A stretch of 64,000 nucleotides of DNA from Treponema sp. GTDB lineage: Bacteria > Spirochaetota > Spirochaetia > Treponematales > Breznakiellaceae. Below the pieces are notes generated by a model. The model was not told the origin of the DNA, did no database searches, and worked only from the letters and a program-made list of their open reading frames with translations. A program made the translations under genes and the position numbers. The stretch covers positions 1-64,000 of the forward strand of contig JAISNI010000072.1 in the NCBI GenBank assembly GCA_031276295.1. Reading direction: 5' to 3'. This document shows positions 1 through 59,223 of the stretch, in pieces (position 1 is the stretch's first letter; each line of letters starts with the position of its first letter).

Positions 1-1218
1 GAGAATGCCAGTAGGGATATCAAGATATTGGTGAGGGATACACAAGGCGTAGCGTTTGTCGGTATTGGCGTTCCGGAAGGAGACGCCGTTGGACAGCCTG
101 TTTCTCTGGATTATAATGCAGATAGGCAGGATGGTAATCGCTTGCATGTAACGATTGGCGCCGCCACCGTCAATTCCGGGCTTTACGATTGGGAGATAGT
201 GCCGCTTGCCCGCTATGCCAATAGAAATTACACGTCGGCAGTAACTTTTTTTGGTAGGGAGACCGACAATGATGATCCAAAACTGAAAGACATAGCGAAA
301 GCCGCCAAAAAGGAAGGTAAGAGGGCCTTCTGGATTAGCTACCATCCTGATCTGGTCAATACCTTGGTAGGGTACAATTTGTTCCTGGTAGACGCCATGC
401 TTTGCGGTGATCCGATAAACACCAAGATTATGGATTTTACCAATCGTTCCAAGAACCACACATTCCCGGTCATAGAAGGGTATAATGATTACGATTACAC
501 AAGCAATGAATCAACCGTGGCGGAATTCGTGCAAAAAACACTAGAGAAAAATATAGATTATATTGATACGTACTTCGATGAAAATCTCATGATGCCTTAC
601 ACAACCTACATCTATAGCGATGGTGAGATGCCTATAACATATCAGTTGAATGGCGATAAGATTGAGTTTACAGGGTATCCGGTCTATCACAACATGATAC
701 GCGAATCTGATACATGGACTTTAACCCTGACAAGGGGAAAAAGCAGTTTGCTGGATCAATTAAGAGAGAGAAAACTAAATCAAAAATTAAACCGGAAGTT
801 ACCGCCCCAAGTTACCGTCACGGTAAAAACATGGCCCAACTTGGACTTTTTGGGTATGCTTGCTTATCTTGTAGTGTATGAAGCTTCAAAAAGTGCATTA
901 CTTGACAGCTATTTAGAAATGGGTTACGAATTTGAAGATATTACATCTGAAGAGAATTTCGAACCTATTCCTGAATTAGTAGATTTTATGAGTATGCAGG
1001 AAAGTTATGAGGCGATGAAGCTGGTAAATCCTGCTGTTTTCAATTCTGCAGAAAGGACCTGCCACTGGCTGGCGTTTTTTCGCGCGGTAAAGGGAGAACA
1101 CGAAAACAAAACGGCAGAATGGGAAAGTTTTATAAAAACGGTTAACGCCAAGTACCCCGAAGGATCCGAAGATCCCGTGTATTCGTATAGAACACCCAGA
1201 CTATGGGTAGCGGACTGA
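1..1218 (+). CDS. hypothetical protein, 5'-truncated by window edge
   Basis: Frame +1 is open from base 1 (ENASRDIKILVRD...), so the listed GTG at 28 is probably internal; no family recognised. Confidence 0.7.
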   Translation, partial: ENASRDIKILVRDTQGVAFVGIGVPEGDAVGQPVSLDYNADRQDGNRLHVTIGAATVNSGLYDWEIVPLARYANRNYTSAVTFFGRETDNDDPKLKDIAKAAKKEGKRAFWISYHPDLVNTLVGYNLFLVDAMLCGDPINTKIMDFTNRSKNHTFPVIEGYNDYDYTSNESTVAEFVQKTLEKNIDYIDTYFDENLMMPYTTYIYSDGEMPITYQLNGDKIEFTGYPVYHNMIRESDTWTLTLTRGKSSLLDQLRERKLNQKLNRKLPPQVTVTVKTWPNLDFLGMLAYLVVYEASKSALLDSYLEMGYEFEDITSEENFEPIPELVDFMSMQESYEAMKLVNPAVFNSAERTCHWLAFFRAVKGEHENKTAEWESFIKTVNAKYPEGSEDPVYSYRTPRLWVAD

Positions 1219-1365
1219 AAGATTGATTACAGCCGGGCTCCTGCAGATACTAACGTCTGGACAACAGCGTGTCCGGCTCCAAGGTCTTTGATTAAGGGAT
1301 AAAAATTGCCCCGGATATGACTGTTTGAAAAATATGGGGAATTAATACTCATAAGGAGAATTTAT

Positions 1366-2076
1366 ATGTATACTTTTGATGATCCGGTCTCCTGGTATGA
1401 GGCGGGTGTCTATCACGTTGCCAGACAGGAATATGACGAAGCAATGAAATGCTTTAATGATGCGTTAGCGGCGTATAAACCTTATTTCTCTGTTTACTTT
1501 AACCGCGGAATAATATTGGATAGATATTATCGCAATTATGACGGGGCAATTGCTGATTACCGGACAGCGCTTGATATAAAACCTGAAGATGATTATCTGG
1601 AGGTAATAACGAAAGAAAAGATTGCCGAAGTATATAAGTTCATCGGCCTGGCTTATCGGCAAAAGGATAATTATAACGCCGCGCTTGAAAATTATAATAA
1701 ATCAATAGAGCTTAATCCTGATAATTGGAGTGTATTTAGCAATCGGGGATTCTTATATGACAAAATGGGTAAGAATGCCCTCGCATTGGCGGATTATATC
1801 GAAGCAATATATATTAAGCCGGATTATGCCATAGCGTATAATAACCGGGGTATTATCCTTGAACGAATGGGGAAATACGATGAGGCGCGGGATGATTACC
1901 TGGATGCAATTAGGCTGGATCCCAAGTTTCCTGAACCTTATAACAATTTGGGTAATATTTATTGCAAACAGGGGAATTATAAAAGCGCAATTCAGTATTA
2001 TAAGATAGCGTTAAAATTGAACCCGAATTATACTGTTGCCCGGCAAAACCTTAATTCGATAATGGGCATGGATTAG
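1366..2076 (+). CDS. TPR repeat protein
   Basis: Repeated TPR pattern (YNAALENYNKSIELNPDNWSVFSNRGFLYDKMGKNALALADYIEAIYIKPDYAIAYNNRG); RBS-like AAGGAG upstream. Confidence 0.9.
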   Translation: MYTFDDPVSWYEAGVYHVARQEYDEAMKCFNDALAAYKPYFSVYFNRGIILDRYYRNYDGAIADYRTALDIKPEDDYLEVITKEKIAEVYKFIGLAYRQKDNYNAALENYNKSIELNPDNWSVFSNRGFLYDKMGKNALALADYIEAIYIKPDYAIAYNNRGIILERMGKYDEARDDYLDAIRLDPKFPEPYNNLGNIYCKQGNYKSAIQYYKIALKLNPNYTVARQNLNSIMGMD

Positions 2077-2101
2077 AGAGAGCCTATAAGTGTTATAATT
2101 T

Positions 2102-3463
2102 TTAACTGCGCCCTACGGATATTATCATGCAAAATATATCACTGTCCTCTGTTATGTCGATGGTATATCCAAGCGCATGGGGTTCATATTTAACATGATA
2201 AAATGATACAAAATTGGCGTCCATTGATTCGTTTAAAAAACATGTAAGCTTTTCGTCCTTTTTATTCTCGTTAAACTTCCTCTGAATATCTCCAAGGGAA
2301 AACTTATCACTGCGGGAGAAGAATAATACAAAAATATCACCATCGGTCTCCGTATTAAGCCATCTCCCTTCACGCGGTATTTCATCATCAATTCCCTGGG
2401 ATATAGACAAAGGTCCTTCACCAAGAGGAAAGACCGGGGAAAGATTAGACATGTCGCCTTTAACGGTAAAAATATAACAACGAAGCGTTAAATTTATATT
2501 GAAGCTAAACCGGAATTTTATTTCTCCTCTATAATTAGATGTGGTTCTATAATAGCCATTTTCTATAAGTTTGAAATGAGGCTTATCACTCGTTCCTTTA
2601 AATAATTTAACATCAATTTTTCCTTTATATTCAGCGGGCAGTTGATAATTATCTTCGTTGTCCTCCATATAGAAAGCACCGACAGTATATTCCGCCAATG
2701 TATCATAATTAACCCATGTACAGCCATTATTTCCCCAATCCACACCCCAGCTATTCTGAATTTCAAACGCTTTTCTGTTCTCATCAAATCCTATTATACA
2801 TACGCCGTGCAGCTTATAATTTTTTTCCGGGGATTCGCCGCGCTTAATCTTCCAGTATTCCTTCGCAATCTTAAAAGATTCCGGTACCTTTAGCGCAACG
2901 ATAACCGGATGAGCCGTTGCTATATAGAACTTTATTCTAAATACTTTTTCTTCGTTTGTTGAATAAATTCCCCAATAGTCCTTTATGCGAAATTTCCGGC
3001 TTCTTTCATATTGAGAAATCGGTGCGTTTGTTATTCCGTGGCTCATTTCCCATTCAGACATTTTTGGCGATCCGATATCTTTTATTTTTTCAAGGGCTTT
3101 GAGTATTTTTAAATCATCATTATACCAATTAGGGTTTTCATCAAAGGACTTACAATACACAAAAGCCGGTGACAATGCGTTTCGGGTAGTAAGATCTTCA
3201 TCGGTACGTTTTAATCTTATCGACATCATTATAGTTTGAGCTGTATATACGGCAGCCCATGTGGCACAGGTGTGGGTTTTACCCTGATGTCCCGGTCGGG
3301 GAGCGTATTGTTTCAGGGAGACAACAGGAGAAACCTCAAGTTTTTGCTTTATTTCCCTTTTTGCAGCATTTTCTATTTTTTTTACCGGTACCTTTTTATA
3401 TTCAGCCTCATCAAGAAGTAAACCGGTACAGTATTCTTCTTTTGTGAAAAAATTCTTAATCAT
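2102..3463 (-). CDS. papain-like (C1 family) cysteine protease with C-terminal DUF4384-like region
   Basis: Catalytic motifs HTCATWAA (Cys), LHGVCIIGFD (His), IQNSWGVDWGNNG (Asn). Start at internal Met (MIKNFFTKEE) avoids overlap with the upstream gene; listed ORF extends to 3520. Confidence 0.85.
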   Translation of the reverse strand: MIKNFFTKEEYCTGLLLDEAEYKKVPVKKIENAAKREIKQKLEVSPVVSLKQYAPRPGHQGKTHTCATWAAVYTAQTIMMSIRLKRTDEDLTTRNALSPAFVYCKSFDENPNWYNDDLKILKALEKIKDIGSPKMSEWEMSHGITNAPISQYERSRKFRIKDYWGIYSTNEEKVFRIKFYIATAHPVIVALKVPESFKIAKEYWKIKRGESPEKNYKLHGVCIIGFDENRKAFEIQNSWGVDWGNNGCTWVNYDTLAEYTVGAFYMEDNEDNYQLPAEYKGKIDVKLFKGTSDKPHFKLIENGYYRTTSNYRGEIKFRFSFNINLTLRCYIFTVKGDMSNLSPVFPLGEGPLSISQGIDDEIPREGRWLNTETDGDIFVLFFSRSDKFSLGDIQRKFNENKKDEKLTCFLNESMDANFVSFYHVKYEPHALGYTIDITEDSDIFCMIISVGRS

Positions 3464-3474
3464 AAATACGGTCC

Positions 3475-6360
3475 TTATTCGTATAATATCAATCCGGCCC
3501 AATACATAGGGTGTTTCCATTTTTCTTTCTCTTCGTCTTCTATTTCAATTTTTTTTCCTTCGTCACCATAGACCTCAATAGTCCCCTCGCGGAATTCATT
3601 TTTTACTTCATAGTAGGCATCTCGAAAGGTCTTGTGCTTCTGCAACACCTTGGTATAAAGGCTAACTATAAAAGCACTTGTTGCTTTATCATCCAGTGCC
3701 CAAAGGCTTACGCCAACGCTTTTTGCCCCTGCAGTCATAAAAGAAATGGGGAGCCCTACAAAACCGCTACCGCGTATATACTCGCCAAGCCCCGCGTTAC
3801 AGATTGACAATTCCACCATTTCGGCTTTTAATCGAACCTGTGCAATATCTTCTATGGATAAGTAGCCGTCTTCTTTAGCCCCCGGTCCGGATGCTTCTGA
3901 AAGCACAATGCCCCACTTGTCAACATTTTCTTTATCGTAATGTCCATGCCCCGAAAAATGTACAATGCTATATTTCTCTAATTCTCCGTTTCGGGATAAT
4001 TCTTTGACCATTGTTTCACTAGCCTCGGATCCCCGGTAAATATTAATACGCTTTCCTTCCCTTAAAGCGATTCTTTCAAGGTTATCTATTTCAATTTTTG
4101 TCCATGGGAGATTTGGTATAATTTCTTCCGGATTGGTATTCGGGTCATTTGGATCGGGTTTTGCAATAAGCCTGGTAGTCCGCCGATCAGCGTTTTCATC
4201 ATGGGTATTATTATATTCTATATCGCCAAACGCAATAATCGATTCATCCTCCGGTTTCCAATCTTTTCTCTTTGCACTTATAGTAACCGAGGGAGAGAAC
4301 GATATTTTATATTGTTTACCCAATTGCGGACTCTGAGCGTCTTCCTGGAGTATATCAAACGGCAGGAAGGGAAGAGAACCGTCTGGCACAACGATAATGT
4401 TTTTTACATTACCGCCTATAAGTTTTCTATCAAACACCGGCTTTATAAGTTCGGCATAGAGATTGCCGCAATATTCTTCAAATCTTGTTCCCTTATCTTC
4501 TTTTGCTATCAGATCCAAAATTCCTTTTATTTCCTGTTCCAGGCGGTCATCTTCATAGATATATTTAAAGTTAAGCGGTATTGCGGTAACGCCGTCATTA
4601 GAAAGAACAAAACAATAAGAATTAATGCATGGATGAATAATAGATTCTGGAATTTCGTAAGAATGAGACTCGGACTGTTCTCTGACCCACTTCCATGTTG
4701 CGGCATAGTCTTTTAGAGCAGACTGATCCCATAGCACATATTCAAGCACAACGGTATCGTTTCCACAAAATTTCTTGGCTTCAGCTATATCTATGGGCCG
4801 GGGATTTATCTTTTCCAAATAACCCGGAATACGCGAATCTATTTCTTCATGAAGTTCTTTAAGTTCCTTTTCAATTTTATTAAGATTTTCACAGGCATAT
4901 AAAAACCTGTTCTCTTTATCTCTATTATTTTCAACAAAACTATAATTCCTACCCAGATATTCATTTATAACATTCTGAGAAAAATCTCTTTCGTTCGTAA
5001 GCCGTAATACTTCTTTTCTTTCATCCTCAGTAACTTTGCAAGGGTCCAGCGCTATGGCAACGCCTATTTGCTCCAAAATATTTCGGCCTCGCAGAGATTC
5101 AGAATACCCAAACGCTTTTTCGCTGTTTCCCGCGGAAGTCTCCATATCCACGCCCACATAGTATAAATACAAGTAGTTAAGCATTATCTGTTTGCCCCGA
5201 CTGTCTTTCCGTAACTGTTCAGTCTTGCTTATGCCGCAGCCAAGCGCATCCTTTGTCAGCTCATACAATTTACAATAAAAAGGATCTGAGAAATTTTCCT
5301 TGTCTAGTTTCCCCTGCTGGTATATTTTCAGCACGAAGGACCATGTTCTATTAACCAAGACAACGGTCGTGTTGCTTTCTTTTGCGGTTTGTATGGAATC
5401 CTGATAATCAGCCAGAGCCTTTTCGTAATCATGTATTCTTTCATACGTATCACCCCGTTCAAAATGGTTTCTTGAAATCCCCGGCCCCCGTTTTATGGAT
5501 CGAGAAATATCCTTTAAGGCTTTGGCGTACTCGCCGATAGCTTTATAAGCCAAACCCCGGTCACGCCAAACCTTAAAATCAAGCGGGTTCAATTCAATTG
5601 CCCTGGTTAAATCCGCCAGGGCATTTCTGTGATAATTTCTTATTAGTTCCTCATCTTCCGTTCCTTTGGCCATATCAAAATATATTTTACTCCGGCCGCT
5701 GTAGGCCAAATAATATGAAGATGCCTCATCAATAATTTCATTAAACAAGTTTAATGCGCTGTCACGATCGCCAGAATACGCAAAGGCATTTGCAAGATTG
5801 CATTTATACATCGGATAATTTTTATTTAAATTAAGGGCCGCTTTGAATGCGGTGATAGCATTCTTATAATTATCCATATGGAAATAAACGCTTCCTAAAC
5901 TATTATACGCTTCAGTATATTTGTCATTGAGGGAGATGGCTTTTAAATAGTTCTCTATCGCCCTGTTGTAATCACCCATATATGTATAAGCATTCCCCAG
6001 GCTGACATACACATAATCATCCTTAGGGTTTAATGTCAGGGCATATTCAAAATCAGAAATGGCCTTACTTATTTCTCTTTTATAGTAATATGACAATCCT
6101 CTGTTGCCGTAAAGCATGAAATCTTCCGGTCCTTTATGCTGCTTTGACAGGGATATGGCCTTATTAAACGCTTCTATTGCCCGGTCCTGATCGCCCAGGT
6201 ATGAATATGCGTTACCAATATTGCCATAGGCGACAGCAAAATCAGGTTTAAACTCAAGGGCTTTATACGAATAATAAAGGGCTTTGGAGTATTGGCCTTT
6301 GCTTCCAAACTCTGTTCCCTTAATAAAAAACATTCTTGCCTGCAAATCATTAGGACTCAT
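3475..6360 (-). CDS. TPR-CHAT caspase-like protease
   Basis: N-terminal TPR array, C-terminal CHAT domain with HFSGHGHYD (His) and VELSICNAGLG (Cys) motifs and GLPISFMTAGAKSVGVSLW. Confidence 0.93.
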   Translation of the reverse strand: MSPNDLQARMFFIKGTEFGSKGQYSKALYYSYKALEFKPDFAVAYGNIGNAYSYLGDQDRAIEAFNKAISLSKQHKGPEDFMLYGNRGLSYYYKREISKAISDFEYALTLNPKDDYVYVSLGNAYTYMGDYNRAIENYLKAISLNDKYTEAYNSLGSVYFHMDNYKNAITAFKAALNLNKNYPMYKCNLANAFAYSGDRDSALNLFNEIIDEASSYYLAYSGRSKIYFDMAKGTEDEELIRNYHRNALADLTRAIELNPLDFKVWRDRGLAYKAIGEYAKALKDISRSIKRGPGISRNHFERGDTYERIHDYEKALADYQDSIQTAKESNTTVVLVNRTWSFVLKIYQQGKLDKENFSDPFYCKLYELTKDALGCGISKTEQLRKDSRGKQIMLNYLYLYYVGVDMETSAGNSEKAFGYSESLRGRNILEQIGVAIALDPCKVTEDERKEVLRLTNERDFSQNVINEYLGRNYSFVENNRDKENRFLYACENLNKIEKELKELHEEIDSRIPGYLEKINPRPIDIAEAKKFCGNDTVVLEYVLWDQSALKDYAATWKWVREQSESHSYEIPESIIHPCINSYCFVLSNDGVTAIPLNFKYIYEDDRLEQEIKGILDLIAKEDKGTRFEEYCGNLYAELIKPVFDRKLIGGNVKNIIVVPDGSLPFLPFDILQEDAQSPQLGKQYKISFSPSVTISAKRKDWKPEDESIIAFGDIEYNNTHDENADRRTTRLIAKPDPNDPNTNPEEIIPNLPWTKIEIDNLERIALREGKRINIYRGSEASETMVKELSRNGELEKYSIVHFSGHGHYDKENVDKWGIVLSEASGPGAKEDGYLSIEDIAQVRLKAEMVELSICNAGLGEYIRGSGFVGLPISFMTAGAKSVGVSLWALDDKATSAFIVSLYTKVLQKHKTFRDAYYEVKNEFREGTIEVYGDEGKKIEIEDEEKEKWKHPMYWAGLILYE

Positions 6361-7346
6361 AACAGACCTCCTTTGTCCAATTCCTTCAGCATCAATGCCG
6401 CTTCCTCATAATCAGGCTTGTCCTTTAAGCCCTGCAAACAAGATGCCCCTGATTGAATGTCACCAAGGGTAATATACAACATTCCAAGCTGATAACAGAT
6501 GTCATCTATAATGTCTTTATCGGTTACTGATTTATCGCGGGCAGTTTTAAAATCTTCTATGGCATCTTCGAAACAACCTTTTTTGCAAGAAACCATGCCT
6601 CGGTTATAATAAGCATCCCGGTTATCATGATCTAGTTCTATCGCCTTGTTAAAATAATTAATCGCGCTGTCGAAATCATCCTTAAGGGTATACGCGATGC
6701 CAAGACTATTATAAACGGATGAGTTTTCATAACCTCGCGGTATCAACTGACTATAATAATCTATTATCCGCTGACATTCCACGTCACCGGAATCAGTATT
6801 GCCGTCAAATACGCCTGCCGCCACCTCGCCCCGGGCATTTTTTATTCTTTGATAAGATTTCCAGTTATTGCTCTTGTCCTTCTCTGACGGGAACAAAAAC
6901 ACGAGTCCTATTGTCATTATTCCTCGGGCAGAATCCGAGAATTTTTTGGCCTGTTTGCTCTGCTCTGCCTGATCCTCTTCCACAGAATCCTCTTCATCTT
7001 CCCCTGAATACGTTTCAAGATATTCCTCAAAGGTTATTCCCGCTTTTTTTATCTCATAACGAATCATGCCATAAAGATTGTATAATTTACTGCGGAACGG
7101 CAGGGAATATCTTATGGCAGTTAAAATATTAAGCATATTCTTCTCGACAAATTCTTTATCGGAAGTCAAATCTTCACAGTTAACTATCCGTAGCGCCGCA
7201 CGAATCAAACGTTCGCTGTTATCATCTTCTTCCCAGAAAGCGTCTTCCAGAAAACCAACAATCTCTTTCCCTGAATTATAATGATGTTCTGTTTCATCCA
7301 GCGAAATTTTCCATTTTTTGGCCAAAACCTTAATGTCTCTATTCAT
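6357..7346 (-). CDS. TPR-containing protein, translationally coupled to the CHAT gene
   Basis: TPR motifs (SVYNSLGIAYTLKDDFDSAINYFNKAIELDHDNRDAYYNRG); 4-bp overlap with the CHAT gene. Confidence 0.85.
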   Translation of the reverse strand: MNRDIKVLAKKWKISLDETEHHYNSGKEIVGFLEDAFWEEDDNSERLIRAALRIVNCEDLTSDKEFVEKNMLNILTAIRYSLPFRSKLYNLYGMIRYEIKKAGITFEEYLETYSGEDEEDSVEEDQAEQSKQAKKFSDSARGIMTIGLVFLFPSEKDKSNNWKSYQRIKNARGEVAAGVFDGNTDSGDVECQRIIDYYSQLIPRGYENSSVYNSLGIAYTLKDDFDSAINYFNKAIELDHDNRDAYYNRGMVSCKKGCFEDAIEDFKTARDKSVTDKDIIDDICYQLGMLYITLGDIQSGASCLQGLKDKPDYEEAALMLKELDKGGLL

Positions 7347-7366
7347 AATTGAACCTCCATTTATCT

Positions 7367-9700
7367 TTAGTCAAAATTACCAATTATATCTTTGAATTCT
7401 TCCCTCCACTTTTCAAAATTGTTTTCTGTAATAGCAGGATTATTAACACGGATGGGATTTCCACTATTTCTATCAAAGCCCTGACCTTTTTTAAGGAATT
7501 CTTTCAAGGCTTCGATAAATTCATCCGATTCCGATGTCTCAAGCCAACTGATAAAGCCTGGAAACACACCTCTGTCATTGTAGTATTTAAGAAATCTACG
7601 GCGAAGTTCTACTATTTCATCTTTGTTTTTTTCTATATAGGGTATTTTTTTTTCTAATAAAAAGTTAGCACGCAAATTTTTAAGGTCCGACAGTAATAAC
7701 GCAAAAGTACCGGGAAAATTTTGAGAAAGGGGGTTGTTCTGATTTGCCTTGACGCCGGAATTGTATTTCATAATACTGGAACAGTTCAGGGCAAATTCTT
7801 CCGGCGGCATATCATTCAAGCAGGAAATAAAAAGACCATAAAGAAGAATATCTTTATTTGTATAATAAGCGACTAAATATTTTTTAAAATCAACATAATC
7901 TTCCAAACGGTTATAAATCGATTCCGGTTTAGGATACGCTTCATCTTCAACTGATGTGAAATCAAAAGAATCGGCGCTTCCTCCTTTGCGGGATTCAAGT
8001 TCCCTCTTAGATGAAATTTTGTTTAAATCACCCCTGGAAGAAAGACTATCATTATCAATACGCGGATATTTGTTTTTGATGTTACGCAACTTTTGATTTT
8101 GCAATCTAAAAAATATTATGATTTGTTTCAAATTCACCTCTTTTTCCCCGGATACATCCGGAACAAAAAAATCCATATCGCTTTCAAGAACATAATACAA
8201 AGCCGGAAGATACACCGTGTCAATTTCAAACAACGGCGTCTCATTTTTTTTAGTCTGCACTAATTTTTCTGTTTTAGTCATATTCACACTCTCCTTATTT
8301 TTTGGATGAAATTCCTGTAATATAGTCATAAAAAAGGCATCATCGATTTGTAAATATTTCTCGCTTTTCAATAAAAAAGGATCCTCCTTGAATACCATCT
8401 TATAACGTACCTTAAAATAACAGTAATGAACCTCATTATATTCCCTCAAGGTCTCCGCCTTTACACTGCCTAGAATAGAGGGTGAAGAGTCTTTTTTCCT
8501 GTATTGTAATTCAATGGTTTTATGGTCCGTATTATAATAAAGACAATTTATTTCTTTATGGTCTTTAAGAAACGTTTCAAGATCCATGTTTGGCGTTCCT
8601 AAGAGCGGTATAACCTTTTTGCTATTAATAAATTCAGAGACCTTCTTTCCAATGATAGTCCTGCGAAACATAAACCTATAATAATATTCAAATGCAATAT
8701 ATATATCGATCTTTTCTTTTGTTTCGGTCGCTCTATGCTCAATAGTAATGAATTTCCATTTGATATAAGGAGCCCTGGCAGTATCCACATGGCAGATATA
8801 ATGAGAGGCTTTGCTATCGATGCCTTTGATGGATTCATAAAACATATTCGTTATATCGGCGCCAGCAGGAAATACACCGCTATAAGCCGCATAGTCTGAT
8901 GCCTTCTTCATGTCTGCTTCTTTCAGTTCATTAAAATATCCAAATACATCAAAGGTTCGACCGGATTTAGACTGACTGTCTGCCTTGGCAATGAATGCTT
9001 TAAACTCAGATGTCTCTTCGCCGCCATTTAGTCTGAAATTAAGAAAACCTTTGGGGAACAATCCCCAGTACTTCTCGTGGGCACAATCCGTTAATTTCTT
9101 GACATCTACTTCGTAAACAGTGCAAGTTATATGAATTCCCTGGCTGTTAATACGGTCATGCGTAACCTTTCTCTCCAAATCAATAAAATCCAAAACACCA
9201 ATATCAAGCTCGTTTGTCCGGGAATCAAAAAATTGAACGCCATAGAAATAAGCATCCAGCGTATTCGTTATACGCCAATGATGAATTATAGTAGGCATCT
9301 TATTCCTCCTTATACTCCTGACACGGACAGGACGAAACTTCCTCCCACCCGGTTCCCCACTAATATAAGGCAAATGAAAGGATGGCGCAAGCCCCCAGAC
9401 GTTGTACTCCGGCGTGAAAGGGGCGGTCTTCGCTACCCGGTTGGCAAAATCGGAAATAAACAAGACGTGGCGGTACCGTTTGCCCGAAACTTCAACATGG
9501 ACAACAAGCGGCGCGGGGTAATGGTCTTCCCGCTCATACCTAAAGGAGACCACGATGTAGTTATCCTCGGCGTTATACCGGACATCCAGCTCCCCGACCA
9601 GGCCGTTTTCATCGACCCGCCTGGGAAAGGGGGCCAGAGGTATATAGGGCGCGGTAACCATAGCCTCAAGTTCTTTCCTGTCTTTTTCCGCCAATACCAC
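7367..9700 (-). CDS. hypothetical protein (777 aa), first gene of the CHAT/C1 protease operon
   Basis: Long ORF, GTG start preceded by GAGGAGG, 20 bp upstream of the TPR gene, same strand; no family recognised. Confidence 0.85.
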   Translation of the reverse strand: MVLAEKDRKELEAMVTAPYIPLAPFPRRVDENGLVGELDVRYNAEDNYIVVSFRYEREDHYPAPLVVHVEVSGKRYRHVLFISDFANRVAKTAPFTPEYNVWGLAPSFHLPYISGEPGGRKFRPVRVRSIRRNKMPTIIHHWRITNTLDAYFYGVQFFDSRTNELDIGVLDFIDLERKVTHDRINSQGIHITCTVYEVDVKKLTDCAHEKYWGLFPKGFLNFRLNGGEETSEFKAFIAKADSQSKSGRTFDVFGYFNELKEADMKKASDYAAYSGVFPAGADITNMFYESIKGIDSKASHYICHVDTARAPYIKWKFITIEHRATETKEKIDIYIAFEYYYRFMFRRTIIGKKVSEFINSKKVIPLLGTPNMDLETFLKDHKEINCLYYNTDHKTIELQYRKKDSSPSILGSVKAETLREYNEVHYCYFKVRYKMVFKEDPFLLKSEKYLQIDDAFFMTILQEFHPKNKESVNMTKTEKLVQTKKNETPLFEIDTVYLPALYYVLESDMDFFVPDVSGEKEVNLKQIIIFFRLQNQKLRNIKNKYPRIDNDSLSSRGDLNKISSKRELESRKGGSADSFDFTSVEDEAYPKPESIYNRLEDYVDFKKYLVAYYTNKDILLYGLFISCLNDMPPEEFALNCSSIMKYNSGVKANQNNPLSQNFPGTFALLLSDLKNLRANFLLEKKIPYIEKNKDEIVELRRRFLKYYNDRGVFPGFISWLETSESDEFIEALKEFLKKGQGFDRNSGNPIRVNNPAITENNFEKWREEFKDIIGNFD

Positions 9701-10065
9701 GTATGCCTCCTCGGAAGAAACGGTTGGGTTCTTATACCTTTAAAGGGGAAATTAGGGGGAGTAATTTTGGCGAATTGCTTAAATTTTTTGAAAATATTTT
9801 TGGTAACCATTCAACCAGGAGGCTTTTCATGCCTCCAGAATGAAAAATTTACCTCGAAAATATTCTCAACAGTCAATTTTTTCATCTACAATGGCTTAAA
9901 GAGCAAAAAAATCAAAAAAAACAACTTAACATTCGTTTATATCTGAATAGTTACTATTTTTGTAATAAACGTAAAACATTCGTTAAAAATTTCCCTTTAT
10001 ATAAATAACAGCGGCTCCTAAGCAGTTTGTTGCGCTTCAGCGCAAAATCGTATAAAAATTCACAA

Positions 10066-10146
10066 GCGCAACAGGCTCAGGCTGCCGGGCGAATGAAGGC
10101 CAAGCCGCCAACGGCGTGAAGCATGTACAGAACGCCCCTGTTAGGC
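10066..10146. other. possible integron attC-like imperfect palindrome
   Basis: GCGCAACAGGCTCAGGCTG ... CAGAACGCCCCTGTTAGGC; the right end GTTAGGC fits the GTTRRRY core and the ends are an imperfect inverted repeat. Confidence 0.25.
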
Positions 10147-10163
10147 GAAGCAGCGTTCCGCCT

Positions 10164-10515
10164 TCATTTCTCCACATATACCGCCGTTATGCTTTTTATT
10201 ATACCTTTATCTTTTTTGTATACTATTATTTCTTCATCAGGTATTATGATGCTTTTTTTTCCTTATTATGTTGTTATATTCTTAAAACCTGCCTCTTCTA
10301 TATATTTTAAGTATATATCTTTTTTAATTGCGCCGGCTACACAACCGGAATACATTTCTACCGCCGTTTTTATCTTTTCAGGTAAATCCCCCATAAGAAC
10401 AATGCCCGAAATACTAAAATGCCCATCGGGTTTTAACACTCTATACATTTCATTAAAAAAAGCTTTTTTATTCGGAATAAGATTCAATACACACTTCCTA
10501 CTATACAATCCTCCT
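10164..10515 (-). pseudogene. remnant of an ArsM-like (arsenite methyltransferase) C-terminal half
   Basis: CVLNLIPNKKAFFNEMYRVLKPDGHFSISGIVLMGDLPEKIK...YIEEAGFKNITT then two in-frame stops; after a frame change the tail continues KSIIIPDEEIIVYKKDKGIIKSITAVYVEK*. No N-terminal half is present. Confidence 0.75.
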
Positions 10516-10527
10516 TTTTTGACGGCT

Positions 10528-10953
10528 TTAATCGGAAGGCGGGGGGCCATCCCCCGGCTCTTGCCCCGGTCCCATCCCTGTTTTAGCGGGGAAACGCCGT
10601 CTGAAAGCATAGAAACCGAGCGCGGCGGCAAACATAGCTACGGCGCCCAGCGCAGTCCTGGCCGCCTCGCCCAATCCGGGGAACGTATATGCGGAAAGTA
10701 CATAAGCGGCGGTAAACCCCAGGACAGGCGGGAGCAGGGCGGAAAGAGTCTGAACGGCGAAGGCCCGTGGGGAAAGGTTAATCTCCACCGAATCCCCCGG
10801 ACGCAGGATCCGCCCCGAGCTGTTCTCCAGGGTAAAAAAATTCCGCACCTTTTTACATTCCGTGTTCATACACCCAAAACAGGCCGTCGTATCCTTCTGC
10901 ATTAAGGTAAGGGTATTACCGGATACTTTACAGACCCGAACCGTTTCTTTCAT
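10528..10953 (-). CDS. RseC/MucC-family (SoxR-reducing system) membrane protein
   Basis: MKETVRVCKVSGNTLTLMQKDTTACFGCMNTECKK Cys cluster followed by two TM segments, typical RseC/MucC architecture. Confidence 0.75.
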   Translation of the reverse strand: MKETVRVCKVSGNTLTLMQKDTTACFGCMNTECKKVRNFFTLENSSGRILRPGDSVEINLSPRAFAVQTLSALLPPVLGFTAAYVLSAYTFPGLGEAARTALGAVAMFAAALGFYAFRRRFPAKTGMGPGQEPGDGPPPSD

Positions 10954-10964
10954 TATGGTATCGC

Positions 10965-11837
10965 CTACCCTTCAAGTTCCTCTTCTTCCGAGCCATCCTC
11001 TTCGCCCGCCCTGTTCCGGTCATTCGTTTCAGGGGGCATATCGGGAACCGATACCGGCACACGGACCCTCTCTATGGAAGCGGCCTTGCCGTTCGGCTTG
11101 AGCTCGATAAGAACACCCTGTAGTTCCGGCTTGTCCCAGGCTTCATGGGTCCAGCCGCGTATACCGGAGAGGTATTCCTGTATACGCGGGGCGCTGCTGC
11201 TGCCACCTACCGACTCGGTGCTGCCGGTACGGCCCGCATCGGTTATCACTGCGGTACCCAGGGGAAGCACCCGCTCGTCGGCGGTCTGTACCCTGGTATG
11301 GGAGCCTATCACCGCGGAACAGCGGCCGTCCGCCGCGGCAAAGAAGGTCTGCTTCTCCGCGGTGGGCCCCGCGTGAAAATCTATAACGATGTAAGGGGTT
11401 TCCTGACGTATCCTTTCCATAAGCGTGGAGAGGCCAGAGACGGGGCTGTTGCCGTGCATCCTTGAGAATCCGCTTTGACCCAAAAAAACGACAACGGCAA
11501 TTTTGACATCGCTCTTGTCCCCCAGCCTGAAAACCCGTATTCCAATTCCCGGAGCTTCGGGGTTAAGGTTTGCGGGCCTGAGCACATAGTTGATTTTATC
11601 GAAGTTTTCGACAAGATCCTTCTTATAAAAGCAGCATTCGCCGGTCGTAATCACCTGAGCGCCCAGTTTGTGGATACGTCCCGCGTGGATCCTCCCGAGC
11701 CCGCTGCCGCCGGTAGCGCCGTCGGCACAGACTATCGTAAAATCTATCTTTCTCTGGCGCTTTAACTCGGCAAAGCCTTTCCTGAAGGCATAGACTCCTG
11801 CCTTTCCTACTAATTCGGCGGTATACAGTACGGTCAT
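10965..11837 (-). CDS. YmdB-family (TIGR00282-type) metallophosphoesterase homologue, divergent metal site
   Basis: YVLRPANLNPEAPGIGI, YIVIDFHAGPTAEK, AVIGSHTRVQTADERVLPLGTAVITDAGRTGS align with YmdB; N-terminal motifs are altered. Confidence 0.8.
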   Translation of the reverse strand: MTVLYTAELVGKAGVYAFRKGFAELKRQRKIDFTIVCADGATGGSGLGRIHAGRIHKLGAQVITTGECCFYKKDLVENFDKINYVLRPANLNPEAPGIGIRVFRLGDKSDVKIAVVVFLGQSGFSRMHGNSPVSGLSTLMERIRQETPYIVIDFHAGPTAEKQTFFAAADGRCSAVIGSHTRVQTADERVLPLGTAVITDAGRTGSTESVGGSSSAPRIQEYLSGIRGWTHEAWDKPELQGVLIELKPNGKAASIERVRVPVSVPDMPPETNDRNRAGEEDGSEEEELEG

Positions 11838-11854
11838 TGCTTTAGCGCCGCGCC

Positions 11855-12424
11855 TTATCTGTTTTTCAGGGTACTATCGGCAAGGCCCGAAAGAGTCTGA
11901 TAACCCGAATTCCGCGAGGCGGTCGAAAGTATACGCTCGAATTCCGCCGCCGCACGGTAATCCTGCAATTCACGGCAGGTATCCCTCAGATTAAACAGGG
12001 CATCGTAGTAGAGAGGGGAAAGGCTGACGGCCTCTTCAAAACAATGCCGGGCTTCCTCATAACTGCCCTCCTTAAAGTAAAGCACCCCCAAGTTATTCCA
12101 CGTTTTAGGAGCGACCCCATCCCGCAGCAACGCGGAATGGTAGCACTCTTCGGCTATTTGAAATTGTTCCAACTCATAGTAGATAAGCCCCATAGCCGTC
12201 CAGGCTTCCGCCATATCGTCATCTATGCAGATAGCGGACTGAAAGCTGTTTAAGGCCTCGTCGTAGTCCCCGGTGCGCTGCTGAGCAATGCCCAGGTTAA
12301 ACCAAAGCAGAGGATTCTCAGGTTCCATAATCAGGGCCCTGCGAAAAAGCGGGATAGCCTCGTTAGGTCTGTTCGCCTCCGTTAATACAATGCCGGAATC
12401 GTTTAAAAATGCAGCAGTTTCCAT
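11855..12424 (-). CDS. TPR repeat protein
   Basis: NPLLWFNLGIAQQRTGDYDEALNSFQSAICIDDDMAEAWTAMGLIYYELEQFQIAEECY. Confidence 0.88.
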   Translation of the reverse strand: METAAFLNDSGIVLTEANRPNEAIPLFRRALIMEPENPLLWFNLGIAQQRTGDYDEALNSFQSAICIDDDMAEAWTAMGLIYYELEQFQIAEECYHSALLRDGVAPKTWNNLGVLYFKEGSYEEARHCFEEAVSLSPLYYDALFNLRDTCRELQDYRAAAEFERILSTASRNSGYQTLSGLADSTLKNR

Positions 12425-12654
12425 AATACCCTCTTATAGTTAGTATATCTGAAATGTTTCCTTATAACCAGAGAAATTCCCCTGTTTTTTCTATTTTTTT
12501 CTATATTTACGATCCTTAAGAAATTTTAACGGGCGGTTCAATTCTTCTATAAATTGTACCTGTCTTGTATTGAAGTATTACATGAATTACAATAAGATAC
12601 ATATAAAGCCCCGTAAAGGGCCCGCCTCATTTGAATAATCTAAAGAAGTGAAGA

Positions 12655-14163
12655 GTGAAAGACATAAGTGAGTTCTCCGTAACAACCACGGAATTTGAAT
12701 TGTTCTCGTTCCTTTACGATAAGATAGTGAACCGGGAAATTATTACATTTTCAACCTTAAAACAGCAGGTTATTCCGATTATAAAGGAAAAACGGATATA
12801 TCCTGTGCTCATGCGTCTTTTCGAGCTGATCAAGCGTTTGTATTGGGGTTTTTTTTCCGACATATCCCCTACCGCTTACCGGAAACTCTGGGAAGAGATG
12901 GTCATTCCCGACAGGCATTTTTCAGAGGCGGGGGACCTCAAGAGAACCCTTTCCATATCCAATCTGTATATCGGCATACTGGATATACACGGCTACACCA
13001 AATTCTGCCAGGATGCCCGCAAGAATCTGTCCATGCTCCACGCTTTAGATAAGGCTATCAACGGGGATATATACCGGATCTGCTCAAAATGCGGTGTCGT
13101 AAGCCACCGGGAACGGGGGGACGAGATTGTGCTGACGGCAGCCTCCGCTACGGACGCGCTGACGGCCGTCCTCTGTATTATCGACTATTTTGCCCGAACC
13201 AAGGTGGTAAACGATCCCGCCATTCCTACCTCACGGTCGGGAGATTTTGCCGCGCTTCCCGAATTTAAAATTTCCGCCGGAATATCGGGGGGCAATACCA
13301 GAATTCCCCTCGTCGTTACCGCCGATGGGGACCTGTCCGGTTTTCTTCTTAATATAGGCGCACGCCTCCAGGTACGGGCCAATGAACTTTCGCCCAATAG
13401 TTCACGGGTAATGGTAAGCCGGCAGGTTTTTCTTAGTTTTACCAAAGAGAATGCCCAAGAGAAATGCGCCCTTGCAAAAAACAATGCCGTCTTTTTCTTT
13501 GATACCGGGAAAATCAGGTTTAAGGGTGTTCTGCTGCCTACCTGCGAGGTCGTTTTTGCGGAAAAAGAACGGTACAAGAGAGAGATAGCCGATGAAATGT
13601 TGAACCTTTACGGCTCGCTCAATGAAGCCCTGTGGGAGCAGAAGGTCTTCCTGAACCTTGTAGAACTCATCTTCAAATCCGTTTCCGTCATGCCGCCCTT
13701 TAAAGTCGTACCGAATAAACCGGTAAAAAACCTAACGCCGCCCGTTACCAACGAATCGGTTAAAAAGCTCTGCCGGATCATGGTAAAGGCATACAACGAC
13801 GAAGAGGATTACGCAGCCGCCACGAATCTGCTCCACGATCTTATTACGATTCTTGAAGCAGTCCCCCAATACGACCATCTTATCCTCGACTACCTGCGGG
13901 GGATAACCGAAAAATACGACATGATACTCAAGTCTTTTCAGGCTTCCATTGATAAAGAGATTGACGAGAACGCGGCAAGCGTCTTCAGCGGCAAGTTCCT
14001 TAATATCTATGTTCAGGCTAAAAAATACTATTCTCTTTATGAACAGTTGCTCCTCTTGGGCCGCAGGAGCAGGGACATTACCAAAAAGAAGACCATCTGG
14101 TATAATCTCGTCAAACAGTACAAGGATAAAATGGCATTCACGCTCTATTCAGGGAAACAGTAG
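12655..14163 (+). CDS. class III nucleotidyl cyclase-like domain protein
   Basis: GILDIHGYTKFCQDARKN ... SHRERGDEIVLTAASATDAL ... FKISAGISGG resembles the guanylate/adenylate cyclase fold; GTG start. Confidence 0.65.
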   Translation: MKDISEFSVTTTEFELFSFLYDKIVNREIITFSTLKQQVIPIIKEKRIYPVLMRLFELIKRLYWGFFSDISPTAYRKLWEEMVIPDRHFSEAGDLKRTLSISNLYIGILDIHGYTKFCQDARKNLSMLHALDKAINGDIYRICSKCGVVSHRERGDEIVLTAASATDALTAVLCIIDYFARTKVVNDPAIPTSRSGDFAALPEFKISAGISGGNTRIPLVVTADGDLSGFLLNIGARLQVRANELSPNSSRVMVSRQVFLSFTKENAQEKCALAKNNAVFFFDTGKIRFKGVLLPTCEVVFAEKERYKREIADEMLNLYGSLNEALWEQKVFLNLVELIFKSVSVMPPFKVVPNKPVKNLTPPVTNESVKKLCRIMVKAYNDEEDYAAATNLLHDLITILEAVPQYDHLILDYLRGITEKYDMILKSFQASIDKEIDENAASVFSGKFLNIYVQAKKYYSLYEQLLLLGRRSRDITKKKTIWYNLVKQYKDKMAFTLYSGKQ

Positions 14164-44839: not shown

Positions 44840-47467
44840 CTACTTACTTAATATCTTCAATATGCCGTTGAGTACAGGGTTAGTGGACAGGGCTATATTT
44901 CTGATCTTCACCCAATTATTCATGATCTCCTTTTCGTTTTCAAAGCGGGTGTTCATTTGTTTTTCCAGTAGCTCCATTTTTGATTTATTCAGTTTGCTTA
45001 AATTCTTCCCTGTTTCCATGAACACATCGGCATCGTCAAGAGAAGAGATAAAGACAAGATATTCGCAAAGCGGTTTAAATTTATTTATTTCATTGCTTTG
45101 CTTCAAATTGTACTGCATACAATTATCCAGGAATTTCCGGCGGGATTTTTTGGTCATGTTAAACAAGGCATAGACGGTTTTTACATCTTCCGCCTTTGTG
45201 CAATATTCGGAAATAACCGGTTCAATCCATTCAATGTACTTGATCTGTTCTTCTTCACTTAAACATTCCAAATCGTACCGTTCATAACCGGAATAGCGGA
45301 TAAGTTTGTCTTTTCCGTTATTAAAATCTTCGGGCAGATACTCGGTAACAATAATCCCCGCCGCAAAGAGTTTAAGCCTTTCCCCAAGCTTTTGTTTATT
45401 TTTAATAATATTAATAATAATATTTTTAAGCATTTCAATTTCTTCACCGGATGGTTTTGCAAGATCGATATTTTTGATGATATGTTCAGAAAGCTCATTT
45501 ATAAAATCCGCTTTGAGTCTATGTTTTAAAATCAGATACAGAAGACCGCGTTTGGCCTGTTCAACATCCCCGGTATTGGATTTTAATAATTTATTATAAT
45601 AGCCGGTGAGGATTCTGTCGGAATATTCGGTTCTGTACCGTTCATATTTCATAACAATTCTTTCCAGATGTTCCTCAAAAATTTCTCTGCAACTCTCCAT
45701 ATCCCTTGTATCACTCAGCATTACATCAAAAAGACAATAAACACGATCATAGCTTTTAACTTTTAAAAGACAATCAAAAACAATTCTCTTATGGTCATTC
45801 GGATATCTGCTTACGGTTTTATAATAATATTCCCATAATGTTTTTTCATTGACGTAATCGTTAGGATGCCTGTTCAGCACATTGTTTATGTTACATATCA
45901 CCGATACAAGATAGGCGCATTCTACCCCAAAAGTATTGATAATATAACGGACGAGAGTTTCACTCATCTCAGGGTGGGATATAAAAACAGATTCCAGTAT
46001 CGCATTGAACAGCGCGTCTACATCCGGCCCGGACGGAACGGATTCGGAAGTTTTCTTCCTGACATACCGGAATATACAGTAAATTATTACTTTTATTTTT
46101 CCAATATCGGCGTCATTATGCCGTAAAAACGCTTTTAACTGTTCCCTGTTCACATCTTTTGCAAATTCAGGTATAAGGTTATATCCATACCGGCTGCACA
46201 GGGAATCGAAATCATTAAACACATCCTTAAATTCAAGGTCTTTAAAATTCGGATCGGAAAAATTGTTTAATATTCTGTATATAATACAGTCTCTGATGCC
46301 TAATCTTTCTTCATTTGAAAAATCTTTATACGATTTAAGGATAAAATACAGAACATCCTTAAAATAGGCTCCGGGTAAATTAACAATAGCCCGCATCTGC
46401 TTTAAAAGTTCCCTTACAAAATTGAGCAGTACGTTTTCTTTTGAATATTTTTCCGCAAAGACGGAAGCCTTCATGAAAATTTCATGGGCGCTGTTTTCAA
46501 TGCCGTCGCTTCGCAGGACATACAGCGAGTATGCGTCAAGATATTCAAGATCGGCTTCGGTATAGCTATAACCTTCACCGAGGAATAGGTGAAAGGACTG
46601 CATAAGATCGTAAGAGATAGACATGGATAACTCCAAAAATTCGATAAAATCGTTTTTAAGATTAAATTCCGCTGTTTCCCCTTTGATAATGTCAAAAACA
46701 AAGTACTGTGAAGGATTATCCCTGCCGTAGGAAGTTCCGTCCGGAACTACTCCACATATCTGCGAATTCGACAGGGACGGGGTACTTTCGTATGTAGTAA
46801 AATTAATGTTCCGTATATTTTTTAAAGGCAGGGCAAATTCAAGCGCGGCAATCCAGAAGATGATATTCTCACTTTCATCACAGATAACAATACGTTTTTT
46901 TTCGGTATTGAAAGATAGAAGCGCATAAAACATATTTTTGTATATATCCATTCTGTTTTCATTATTGAGGAATGCAATAACCGAATCGACGGTTATCTTT
47001 GTTCCCTTTGACAGAACGGGAACGGGAAGAAAGCCGGGCGGGTCGGGGTTATTCACTTCGTCCTTATCCATAGAACTGCGGAGCATTTCACTTTCAAAAA
47101 ATTCGCACGGATAATTCTGAAAACATCTGTCATTGAAAATGACCGAATGGCTTAAATAATTACCGAATCTTCCCCCGGCAGGCATATAATCTCTACCGAT
47201 ATAGGTATTAAGCGTAACCGCGTATGTACCATCGTCAATTTTTCTGAACGTAAAAGCCCGCGGCATGGTTTTTGCAATTTCTTCCGTCATAATAAGGCCC
47301 GGTTTTAAGGAGGGCGGCTGGTAACCAAACAGGCTCCTCACATTGTCCGATTTGGAATATTTAAAATCCTTATCATAGGAGAAGACCTGCTGTCCATCGT
47401 TGACCCCGTCAATACCCCGCTTGCAGGAGGTATATATTATCTGATGTAATTTGCTATCCGTTTCCAT
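44840..47467 (-). CDS. GTPase-associated protein 1 (GAP1-N2-like)
   Basis: N-terminus LHQIIYTSCKRGIDGVNDGQQVFSYDKDF...VRSLFGYQPPSL...RFGNYLSHSVIF resembles the GAP1 N-terminal domain; last gene of the GTPase/Hsp70 operon. Confidence 0.65.
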   Translation of the reverse strand: METDSKLHQIIYTSCKRGIDGVNDGQQVFSYDKDFKYSKSDNVRSLFGYQPPSLKPGLIMTEEIAKTMPRAFTFRKIDDGTYAVTLNTYIGRDYMPAGGRFGNYLSHSVIFNDRCFQNYPCEFFESEMLRSSMDKDEVNNPDPPGFLPVPVLSKGTKITVDSVIAFLNNENRMDIYKNMFYALLSFNTEKKRIVICDESENIIFWIAALEFALPLKNIRNINFTTYESTPSLSNSQICGVVPDGTSYGRDNPSQYFVFDIIKGETAEFNLKNDFIEFLELSMSISYDLMQSFHLFLGEGYSYTEADLEYLDAYSLYVLRSDGIENSAHEIFMKASVFAEKYSKENVLLNFVRELLKQMRAIVNLPGAYFKDVLYFILKSYKDFSNEERLGIRDCIIYRILNNFSDPNFKDLEFKDVFNDFDSLCSRYGYNLIPEFAKDVNREQLKAFLRHNDADIGKIKVIIYCIFRYVRKKTSESVPSGPDVDALFNAILESVFISHPEMSETLVRYIINTFGVECAYLVSVICNINNVLNRHPNDYVNEKTLWEYYYKTVSRYPNDHKRIVFDCLLKVKSYDRVYCLFDVMLSDTRDMESCREIFEEHLERIVMKYERYRTEYSDRILTGYYNKLLKSNTGDVEQAKRGLLYLILKHRLKADFINELSEHIIKNIDLAKPSGEEIEMLKNIIINIIKNKQKLGERLKLFAAGIIVTEYLPEDFNNGKDKLIRYSGYERYDLECLSEEEQIKYIEWIEPVISEYCTKAEDVKTVYALFNMTKKSRRKFLDNCMQYNLKQSNEINKFKPLCEYLVFISSLDDADVFMETGKNLSKLNKSKMELLEKQMNTRFENEKEIMNNWVKIRNIALSTNPVLNGILKILSK

Positions 47468-47480
47468 AATACATTTCCTT

Positions 47481-49832
47481 TTAGTTGAATGTACGTACAA
47501 TCCTGAAGCCGACCGTATTGTATTTTCCCTCGGGTTCCCTTGCGCCGCGGAACGCCGAACGAAGATTTACGGCCTGTTCGCCCCACGAGCCGCCGCGGAC
47601 AACACGCCGGAGGCGTTGCGGGGGCGGAGAAGGCGGAGATGGAGGCGTCTGATAGGACGGCGGGTACGGCTGCATCTGCCCCCGCGCGGGAATTATATAG
47701 TAACCGGAGGGAGCATCCGGTTCGGCTATCGCGCTATAATTTCCGTAAACGTCAAAACACCATTCCCTGACATTTCCGTGCATATCGTAGAGCCCCCAGG
47801 CATTCGATGAAAAGGATTGAACGTGGACCGTTGCCGATCCGTTGTAGTTGGCCGAATCTGTTGAAATTGTATTTCCGGTATTAAAGGCCGTTGCAGTACC
47901 GGCGCGGCAGGCAAATTCCCATTCCGCTTCCGTAGGCAAACGGTATCCGTTTGCGCCCGTGTTCCATGTTACCTGTGTACCGTTTACCGTATACGCTCTT
48001 TCAAGCGCCTCAAGGTCGCTCAATGCGTTACAGAAGTTAATCGCGTCATACCATGTTACCATTTCTACCGGCCGGTCCGCCCCTGTAAAATAACTTGGAT
48101 TGTATCCCATAACTTCCGCATACTTAGCCTGTGTTATCTCAGTCTGCCCCATATAGAAACTATCGACACCCACATCATGCGGTGTTTCATCATCCTCCCG
48201 GCCGGGCTCGGTAACGGAACTCCCCATCGTGTATACTCCGGCAGGGATATAATTCAGGTCTATACCGATAGTATTTACAAAAAAACCGCGGAACGAGAAT
48301 GTTAGATTAAATTCACGGTTGCTTTCTATATTTATATATTCTTCTTCAAAGAAATACTGATAATCTATCCTGACCAAATGTTTTCCCTCGTCTATTCCGT
48401 TTATTCTTTTAGGCTCGTCCGGCGAGACTGTACCGATTAGTTTATCATTAAGATAGAGCGTGCCCTCTTCCTGAACATGAACAATAAGGCTGCCTCTTGT
48501 AAGAGCGTTGTTTATGAAGAACGCGGCAATACCGAGAATACCGAGGATGCCGCAGAAGACCAGACCTGCAATTAAGGCTTTTACGGCAACTTTCGGTTTC
48601 CTGGGCGGACGGTAGAATCCTTTGCCGTCAAAGACGCCATTCTCTTTCATAAGAAAGAGGAAGGGATCTTCTATGCGGTGCGGGCGAGGCCGGTCGATGG
48701 TACGGTCGGCTTTCGGATTATTATGGAGGCCGAGCGCGGATACGGCAAAATAGGCGTAATGGGAGTAGTTTACGTTAAGTTCCGTTATAAACGCGTCGGC
48801 GCCCCAGTTTTTGAGCAGGCTCTGTATTTCGCTGCTGACGCTATGACAGTCCGATAATACCAAAGACCGCGCATTACAATGGGGGCTTGCTTCGGATATG
48901 GTACAACCCGGAGGCACAATGCCCGCTATAACATCATATTTGGAAAATACGACGGCAATCGGCGTTTTTATTTTCTCAGTAGTCTTAATGTTTCTATCGT
49001 AACGTATAAGCCGGGAAACCCGGTTTATTATATCGCCGGGATTTGCCGCAAGCCGCCAGTCAACCGAAGAAGCCCGGGTGATAATATTCTCATCAAGCTG
49101 ATTCGCCACCGCGGGTATCTGGAGAGGATCAATAAGAAAAATGATTCCGGCGGATTTACAAATATACCTGTTTACCGTATTCATGGTATCTTCGTCATTA
49201 AGATCTTCACCCGCGGTATCAAAAAAAACAAAGGTATAGGAATCGATAGTTTCTTTAAAGATCAATTTACGTCCGACATTCAGGGTGAAGATAAGGGGCC
49301 GGTATGCGCCGTTGTTGACATCAACCTGGGAACTTCTGGTAAGATCCAGCTTCTGCAAATCCACATACAAACGCCGGGCAAAATTCTGCTGGTAGCGCTG
49401 CATGGTATCGTCAAAGCCTACAAGCGATCCCCCGAACAACTGCGGGGCAATTCGGTTTATCAGTTCGTTGATGATAACGCCGACAAAATGGCTCTTGCCG
49501 GTATCGCGGGAACCTACAATCGAGATGATCATATCCCTGCCGGTCAAGGTGCTTTCGGGCAGGGCATTATGACAGGAAGGGCATATTACTTTGTATGTAG
49601 GTTTTCCGCACTGCGGGCAAACGGCGGTTTTTGGTACACCGAAGGATGTATTTGAAGTAACGGGAAATGTTTTTTTACCCTTTTTGGGCATATTGATATT
49701 ACCATTTTCGTATTTGGTCATCTCTATATCATCAAAATCCGGGCACCTGGTATTTATACAGCGGAATTGTATCTCCGAGAGAGCGTGTTTTTCAAAACAA
49801 TACGGACAGGTAAAGGTTTTGCTGCTTGCCAT
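47481..49832 (-). CDS. zinc-ribbon/TRAFAC-type GTPase with TM segment, PEGA-like region and FGE-sulfatase-like domain
   Basis: Two zinc ribbons; P-loop SIVGSRDTGKSHF; Walker B FFDTAGEDL; FSKYD; TM VKALIAGLVFCGILGILGIAAFFI; FGE-like YIPAGVYTMGSS...RLPTEAEWEFACRAGT...VRGGSW. Confidence 0.88.
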   Translation of the reverse strand: MASSKTFTCPYCFEKHALSEIQFRCINTRCPDFDDIEMTKYENGNINMPKKGKKTFPVTSNTSFGVPKTAVCPQCGKPTYKVICPSCHNALPESTLTGRDMIISIVGSRDTGKSHFVGVIINELINRIAPQLFGGSLVGFDDTMQRYQQNFARRLYVDLQKLDLTRSSQVDVNNGAYRPLIFTLNVGRKLIFKETIDSYTFVFFDTAGEDLNDEDTMNTVNRYICKSAGIIFLIDPLQIPAVANQLDENIITRASSVDWRLAANPGDIINRVSRLIRYDRNIKTTEKIKTPIAVVFSKYDVIAGIVPPGCTISEASPHCNARSLVLSDCHSVSSEIQSLLKNWGADAFITELNVNYSHYAYFAVSALGLHNNPKADRTIDRPRPHRIEDPFLFLMKENGVFDGKGFYRPPRKPKVAVKALIAGLVFCGILGILGIAAFFINNALTRGSLIVHVQEEGTLYLNDKLIGTVSPDEPKRINGIDEGKHLVRIDYQYFFEEEYINIESNREFNLTFSFRGFFVNTIGIDLNYIPAGVYTMGSSVTEPGREDDETPHDVGVDSFYMGQTEITQAKYAEVMGYNPSYFTGADRPVEMVTWYDAINFCNALSDLEALERAYTVNGTQVTWNTGANGYRLPTEAEWEFACRAGTATAFNTGNTISTDSANYNGSATVHVQSFSSNAWGLYDMHGNVREWCFDVYGNYSAIAEPDAPSGYYIIPARGQMQPYPPSYQTPPSPPSPPPQRLRRVVRGGSWGEQAVNLRSAFRGAREPEGKYNTVGFRIVRTFN

Positions 49833-49851
49833 AAGTATTTACTCCTTTTCA

Positions 49852-51666: not shown

Positions 51667-51677
51667 TCACTTTCCCC

Positions 51678-54674: not shown

Positions 54675-54683
54675 GATGTCCCC

Positions 54684-56789: not shown

Positions 56790-56804
56790 GATGATCCTTT
56801 ACAG

Positions 56805-58436: not shown

Positions 58437-58441
58437 TTCCT

Positions 58442-59164: not shown

Positions 59165-59223
59165 AAAAATTACAAACTCCTTTATAGTATTGTATTCCGT
59201 AATTTTACTACGAAATAAGCCGG

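Follow-up and report, generated by a model that had tools for sequence, protein, structure and literature searches.

Organization of the operon

The window analyzed here is a stretch of 64,000 nucleotides from contig JAISNI010000072.1 of a draft Treponema sp. assembly (GCA_031276295.1; 83% complete, 247 contigs). Four genes on its minus strand encode a 777-aa protein, a TPR protein (referred to as the adaptor), a TPR-CHAT protease, and a papain-like C1 protease (Table 1). An earlier note, made from the sequence alone, had described four tightly packed genes with one 4-bp overlap and intact catalytic motifs in both proteases; all of these ORFs were recovered at the same positions, and the CHAT His/Cys and C1 Gln/Cys/His/Asn motifs are all present. 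The G+C content of 0.38-0.39 over 2-10 kb is below that of most of the contig (0.47-0.59), which suggests, on composition, that the operon region may be foreign in origin. No direct repeats of at least 22 bp within 200 bp were detected in positions 1-14000, and PADLOC returned no cas matches among the operon proteins.

Table 1. Features of the operon and its surroundings in the window
Feature	Position	Strand	Remarks
Flanking gene	28..1218	plus	Paralogue L007:16507-17835 flanks the second locus of the genome; phmmer E 5e-121; DNA 68-75% identical
TPR protein gene, convergent neighbor, candidate member	1366..2076	plus	TPR_1 E 3.9e-46
Papain-like C1 protease gene	ORF 3520-2102 (472 aa)	minus	PF00112; better start 3463, giving 453 aa
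TPR-CHAT protease gene, 961 aa	6360-3475	minus	CHAT PF12770 E 4.6e-41; 4-bp overlap with adaptor gene
Adaptor (TPR) gene, 329 aa	7346-6357	minus	N-terminal helical domain and C-terminal TPRs; TPR_1 E 6.4e-18
Adaptor N-domain, aa 1-115	7002..7346	minus	Predicted six-helix bundle; AlphaFold2 pLDDT 81, pTM 0.75
777-aa protein gene	9700-7367	minus	GTG start, GAGGAGG upstream; beta domain fused to big
Big proper, from about aa 143	7367..9274	minus	Alignment and hhalign; motifs YF..V.F, LFP, W(D/K)F...IY.AF.YY conserved
Small beta domain, aa 15-103	9392..9658	minus	Matches to the small proteins of L007 (phmmer E 9e-47) and L006 (1e-10)
Leader/upstream region	9642..10022	minus	77-78% identical to L007:9236-9455; common to both loci of the genome

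Two further observations concern the surroundings. Upstream of the operon, a fragment at 10266-10631 (minus strand) resembles a methyltransferase C-terminus (...MYRVLKPDGHFSISGIVLMGD...) and is probably a gene remnant. At 44840-60711, a run of GAP1-N2/GAP1-M, FGE-sulfatase, zinc-ribbon, Hsp70-vWA, Hsp70, and DO-GTPase2 genes is, judged by its gene content, a second conflict system of known type, matching the GAP1-N2/DO-GTPase systems (PMC7159879).

The CHAT domain occupies aa 629-959 of the TPR-CHAT protein, and the domain together with intact catalytic residues His805 (HFSGHG) and Cys854 (SICNAG) places this protein among the CHAT (clan CD) peptidases. No other full CHAT protein was detected in the draft genome, and searching PDB with its CHAT domain gave no sequence match to Csx29. 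The C1 protease (PF00112, E about 3.4e-7 to 3.7e-7), for which PDB matches included Der p 1 and cathepsins, belongs to the papain family by its Gln79, Cys85, His238, and Asn256. Its gene more likely starts at the ATG at 3463 than at the ORF opening at 3520, because an AAGGA ribosome-binding site for the former overlaps the CHAT stop.

The 777-aa protein and the adaptor

The 777-aa protein had been described in the earlier note as an unknown partner. It indeed has no match in Pfam, PADLOC, NCBIfam, or PHROGs and nothing convincing in PDB, but it is not an orphan, since relatives are present in sister loci. It consists of a beta domain of ~90 residues (aa 15-103) fused to a larger part, here called big, that begins at about aa 140-143. 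The small beta domain is encoded by a gene of its own in L005, L006, L007, L025, L026, and L076, and it resembles the adaptor C-terminus of the Lon-like versions described below (hhalign P 86.8%, E 4e-6). The window protein is homologous to big of L005 (E 1.8e-45), and the profile of these two aligns with that of 10 other bigs (hhalign P 96.3%, E 1.9e-9); weaker profile links were obtained for the bigs of L077, L138, and L142 taken together (P 88%) and for those of L078 and L143 (P 49%). An AlphaFold2 model of the 777-aa protein, built on an alignment of two sequences, was unusable (pLDDT 34.6), and PDB profile searches with big, the adaptor, and the Lon-like domain gave nothing usable. We also considered big as a degenerate sigma factor and rejected this candidate, as similarity was undetectable by profile comparison, including against the sigma factor of L040 (see below).

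The adaptor N-domain is 47% identical to that of the L005 adaptor and aligns with the other adaptors (hhalign P 94.9%, E 4.5e-8). It had no sequence match to anti-sigma domains, and a Foldseek search with its model found no PDB fold match (best E 3.9). A Death-like domain (EAD/bDLD) was considered in view of the six-helix model, yet it was rejected as Foldseek returned no Death-fold match. Neither core protein (big or the adaptor N-domain) has a match in Pfam, NCBIfam, PADLOC, or PDB.

Recurrence of big and the adaptor in related genomes

A search of 394 genomes of the order with the adaptor N-domain gave matches at E ≤ 0.01 in 19 genomes, 15 of which had E < 1e-17. Of the 21 well-supported adaptor loci examined in Spirochaetia-related genomes, 20 have big immediately upstream in the same orientation, with -29 to +52 bp between the two genes; the exception is an orphan adaptor (L139). 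The distribution was sampled in spirochaete-related genomes and, with single queries, in viral contigs and plasmids; core relatives were not found in the latter two, and no sigma gene is annotated beside the cyanobacterial plasmid TPR-CHAT matches in the two records viewed.

The earlier note had stated that a lack of co-occurrence of the genes elsewhere would speak against its reading. Examination of neighborhoods shows that the unknown protein, the TPR protein, and the TPR-CHAT protease do form a recurrent unit: big, adaptor-TPR, and TPR-CHAT are found together in two further genomes (L137 and L141), so that these genes do co-occur. TPR and protease genes are common, with many TPR matches in the window genome itself, and might therefore cluster by chance; however, more than 15 genomes, belonging to several genera and families, have the same gene order, for which reason we reject chance clustering as having almost no likelihood. 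On sequence comparison, big and the adaptor N-domain are the conserved pair of an earlier-unnamed bacterial gene set in which the protease is exchanged.

The core idea of the earlier note, a proteolytic cascade, did not hold up equally well. In such a cascade, the CHAT and papain-like proteases would activate each other and the 777-aa protein would serve as sensor or substrate. The intact catalytic sites of both proteases and the tight packing of the genes speak for it, but the C1 gene is found in no other operon copy: neither of the remaining CHAT versions has it nearby (L137 carries a second TPR-CHAT in its stead, and L141 has none), and the sole other C1 gene near a locus, ~3 kb upstream in L037, encodes a secreted protein and belongs to a different gene group. 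The two-protease cascade is therefore unsupported as a defining feature and appears quite improbable, and the papain-like protease is, by its distribution, an accessory of the window copy.

Exchange of the protease and of the adaptor tail

What follows the conserved pair is of three types. TPR-CHAT proteins are found in the window, L137 (two TPR-CHATs), and L141, and WD40-caspases in L144 (PF00656, E 1.9e-14) and L145 (5.2e-17); L140, which has the same WD40 start before its contig ends, is probably a third WD40-caspase version. A Lon-like domain follows the pair in 11 loci (L005, L006, L007, L025, L026, L037, L039, L076, L077, L138, and L142), where it usually forms the N-terminus of a STAND-type NTPase that carries ankyrin or DUF4116 repeats, or of a degenerate one with LRRs. 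All CHATs and caspases examined retain their catalytic motifs. In the Lon-like domain, Ser84, Thr112-Gly113, and Lys133 match the catalytic Ser, TGE, and Lys of Lon in order and, approximately, in spacing, and Ser84 and Lys133 are kept in 12 of 13 such domains and lost together in that of L078. This domain had no PDB match, and because the comparison of its profile with Lon of related genomes was not significant (20.2 versus a best score of 19.0 in 30 column shuffles), we propose the name "Lon-like" at the level of motifs.

The C-terminal half of the adaptor tracks the protease, being a beta domain with the Lon-like domain (11 of 11) and TPRs with CHAT or caspase (6 of 6; Fisher p 8e-5 for the coupling, although the loci share ancestry and are not independent). 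Adaptors of the caspase versions carry one transmembrane helix between the N-domain and the TPRs, a feature they have in common with membrane anti-sigma factors, and inspection by eye showed lipoprotein-like signals at the start of the L140 and L145 WD40-caspases.

Several other genes were observed beside the system. Homologous NYN-domain genes (PF01936; E 5e-27) adjoin it at L078:9296-10204 and L143:3739-4749; the former locus has the Lon-like domain devoid of Ser/Lys and no protease was seen in the latter. Genes for trypsin-like proteases lie near the WD40-caspases at L140:6153-7766 (PF13365, E 4.3e-17) and L145:173-1780 (by similarity of the translation). Two families of small secreted or membrane proteins are each shared between loci of different genera, one at L006:8897-9863 and L076:3452-4389 and the other at L077:4139-5314 and L078:11029-12998, and it is possible that both are membrane effectors.

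Such surroundings raise the question of cell-suicide immunity, in which big would be a latent toxin that kills the cell once cleaved, like gasdermins cut by bacterial proteases. Conflict systems typically include CHAT, caspase, and NYN RNase genes, the loci are patchy and variable, and membrane-protein families are linked to the Lon-like L006/L076 and to L077/L078. However, of 22 big ORFs tested, 21 lack a hydrophobic segment, and Pfam, PADLOC, and further profile searches matched big to neither a toxin nor a gasdermin; we consider a latent toxin improbable.

Two copies in one genome

The window genome contains a second locus of the system (L007). The leader and the flanking gene are alike in the two copies (Table 1), as is the small-domain sequence (84%), and the interior genes differ. 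Comparison of these two copies thus shows, at the sequence level, a cassette-like swap of interior genes within one genome. An HD-domain gene of L007 (9397-9972), which resembles a small ppGpp hydrolase, lies upstream of the small gene, and its leader and first codons correspond to the start of the 777-aa gene. Because of this correspondence, the window form of the protein resembles the product of a deletion that fused two genes at an APY-coding match; we infer this event from the two copies, its direction being tentative.

A possible sigma connection and a proposed switch

A clue to the function comes from L040, where an ECF sigma factor (TIGR02937, E 1.1e-7) and a possible anti-sigma factor stand in place of the pair before a homologue of the Lon-like N-terminal domain (E 6e-30 against a profile built without L040), the genes overlapping. 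The protein in the adaptor position of L040 has a weak anti-sigma match (NF010501, E 0.016), and its alignment with the other adaptors was not significant. The 1122-aa protein adjoining the ECF sigma gene (L040:8430-11798) combines the Lon-like domain with LRR_5 repeats and a tubulin/FtsZ GTPase domain (PF00091, E 7.4e-34). Among the window operon proteins, no sigma factor match was obtained in Pfam or further profile searches.

We propose, with a probability of about one half, that the operon is a modular switch made up of protease, adaptor, and output. The adaptor N-domain would hold big inactive in a complex, and the C-terminal half of the adaptor (TPRs in the window) would dock the matching protease. 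A stimulus may be felt by the repeat array of the protease, which is TPR in the window and ankyrin, LRR, WD40, or DUF4116 elsewhere, and the activated protease would then cleave the adaptor and/or big, by which an active product would be released. The analogous Craspase/CASP and Calp systems point to a regulatory (transcription-like) response as the most likely output, and a toxic one is possible. As big has no detectable sigma similarity, a transcriptional output is suggested by the replacement in L040 and by this analogy.

The regulatory side of this picture could also be the whole of it, namely a sigma/anti-sigma type of switch that answers stress in the envelope or the cytosol and has no link to invaders. 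The ECF sigma factor in L040 and the transmembrane adaptors accompanied by lipoprotein-like caspases would fit such a switch. However, the strong variability of the repeat arrays and the sporadic distribution (the 15 of 394 genomes above) look more like those of a conflict system, and a purely regulatory role seems unlikely. A more specific form of the modular switch can be put forward tentatively: a CRISPR-independent system in which the protease is a plug-in part (of the unrelated CHAT, caspase, or Lon-like classes, sometimes replaced by an RNase), the adaptor tail switches along with it, and the core is a functional stand-in for a sigma/anti-sigma pair. Such a switch may control stress or anti-virus responses. 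If this is true, the inhibitor logic under protease control that is known from type III CRISPR systems (CASP, Calp) may also occur as a stand-alone module, which would have interchangeable triggers and proteases. A testable prediction is that a matched adaptor tail should dictate which protease each core obeys. In addition, big and the adaptor represent two unnamed families that could be used to find further such systems.

Comparison with known systems

In two published systems with proteases of the CHAT and Lon types, Csx29/Csx30/CASP-sigma (PMC10028731) and CalpL (SAVED-Lon)/CalpT (anti-sigma)/CalpS (sigma) (PMC12751052), the protease cuts a sigma inhibitor. Craspase/CASP comprises the type III-E effector Cas7-11, the TPR-CHAT protein Csx29, Csx30, and CASP-sigma (PMC10028731), and the window operon resembles it in that a TPR-CHAT protease accompanies a protein whose fold is unknown. 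However, the protease is exchanged between loci, and the core proteins appear unrelated by the searches made. As no CRISPR-type direct repeats were detected in positions 1-14000 and no Cas protein among the operon proteins, the operon was rejected as a type III-E CASP/Craspase system, for which Cas7-11 and a CRISPR array are required. With Calp, the gene set shares the three-part logic of protease, inhibitor, and output, as well as the Lon-like Ser/Lys pattern of the sister loci; unlike Calp, it has no SAVED domain or CRISPR, the window copy uses CHAT, and kinship to Lon is not statistically established.

Caspase neighborhoods with an ECF sigma factor and a DUF1822 TPR protein have been described as EACC2-caspase systems (Kaur et al. 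2021, PMC8195603, section 9). These are similar in that a protease with a variable sensor region has a TPR protein and a sigma factor as neighbors, but the constant pair is different and in our gene set the protease clan itself is exchanged; no Pfam match to DUF1822 or caspase (C14) was found in the window operon, and on this basis we did not assign it to the EACC2 systems. Finally, although the window operon contains neither the MoxR-vWA pair nor the EACC1 transmembrane component of the EACC1 and VMAP/iSTAND systems (Kaur et al. 2020, PMC7159879), it shares with them the combination of a constant component with exchangeable peptidases, which in those systems are caspase and trypsin.
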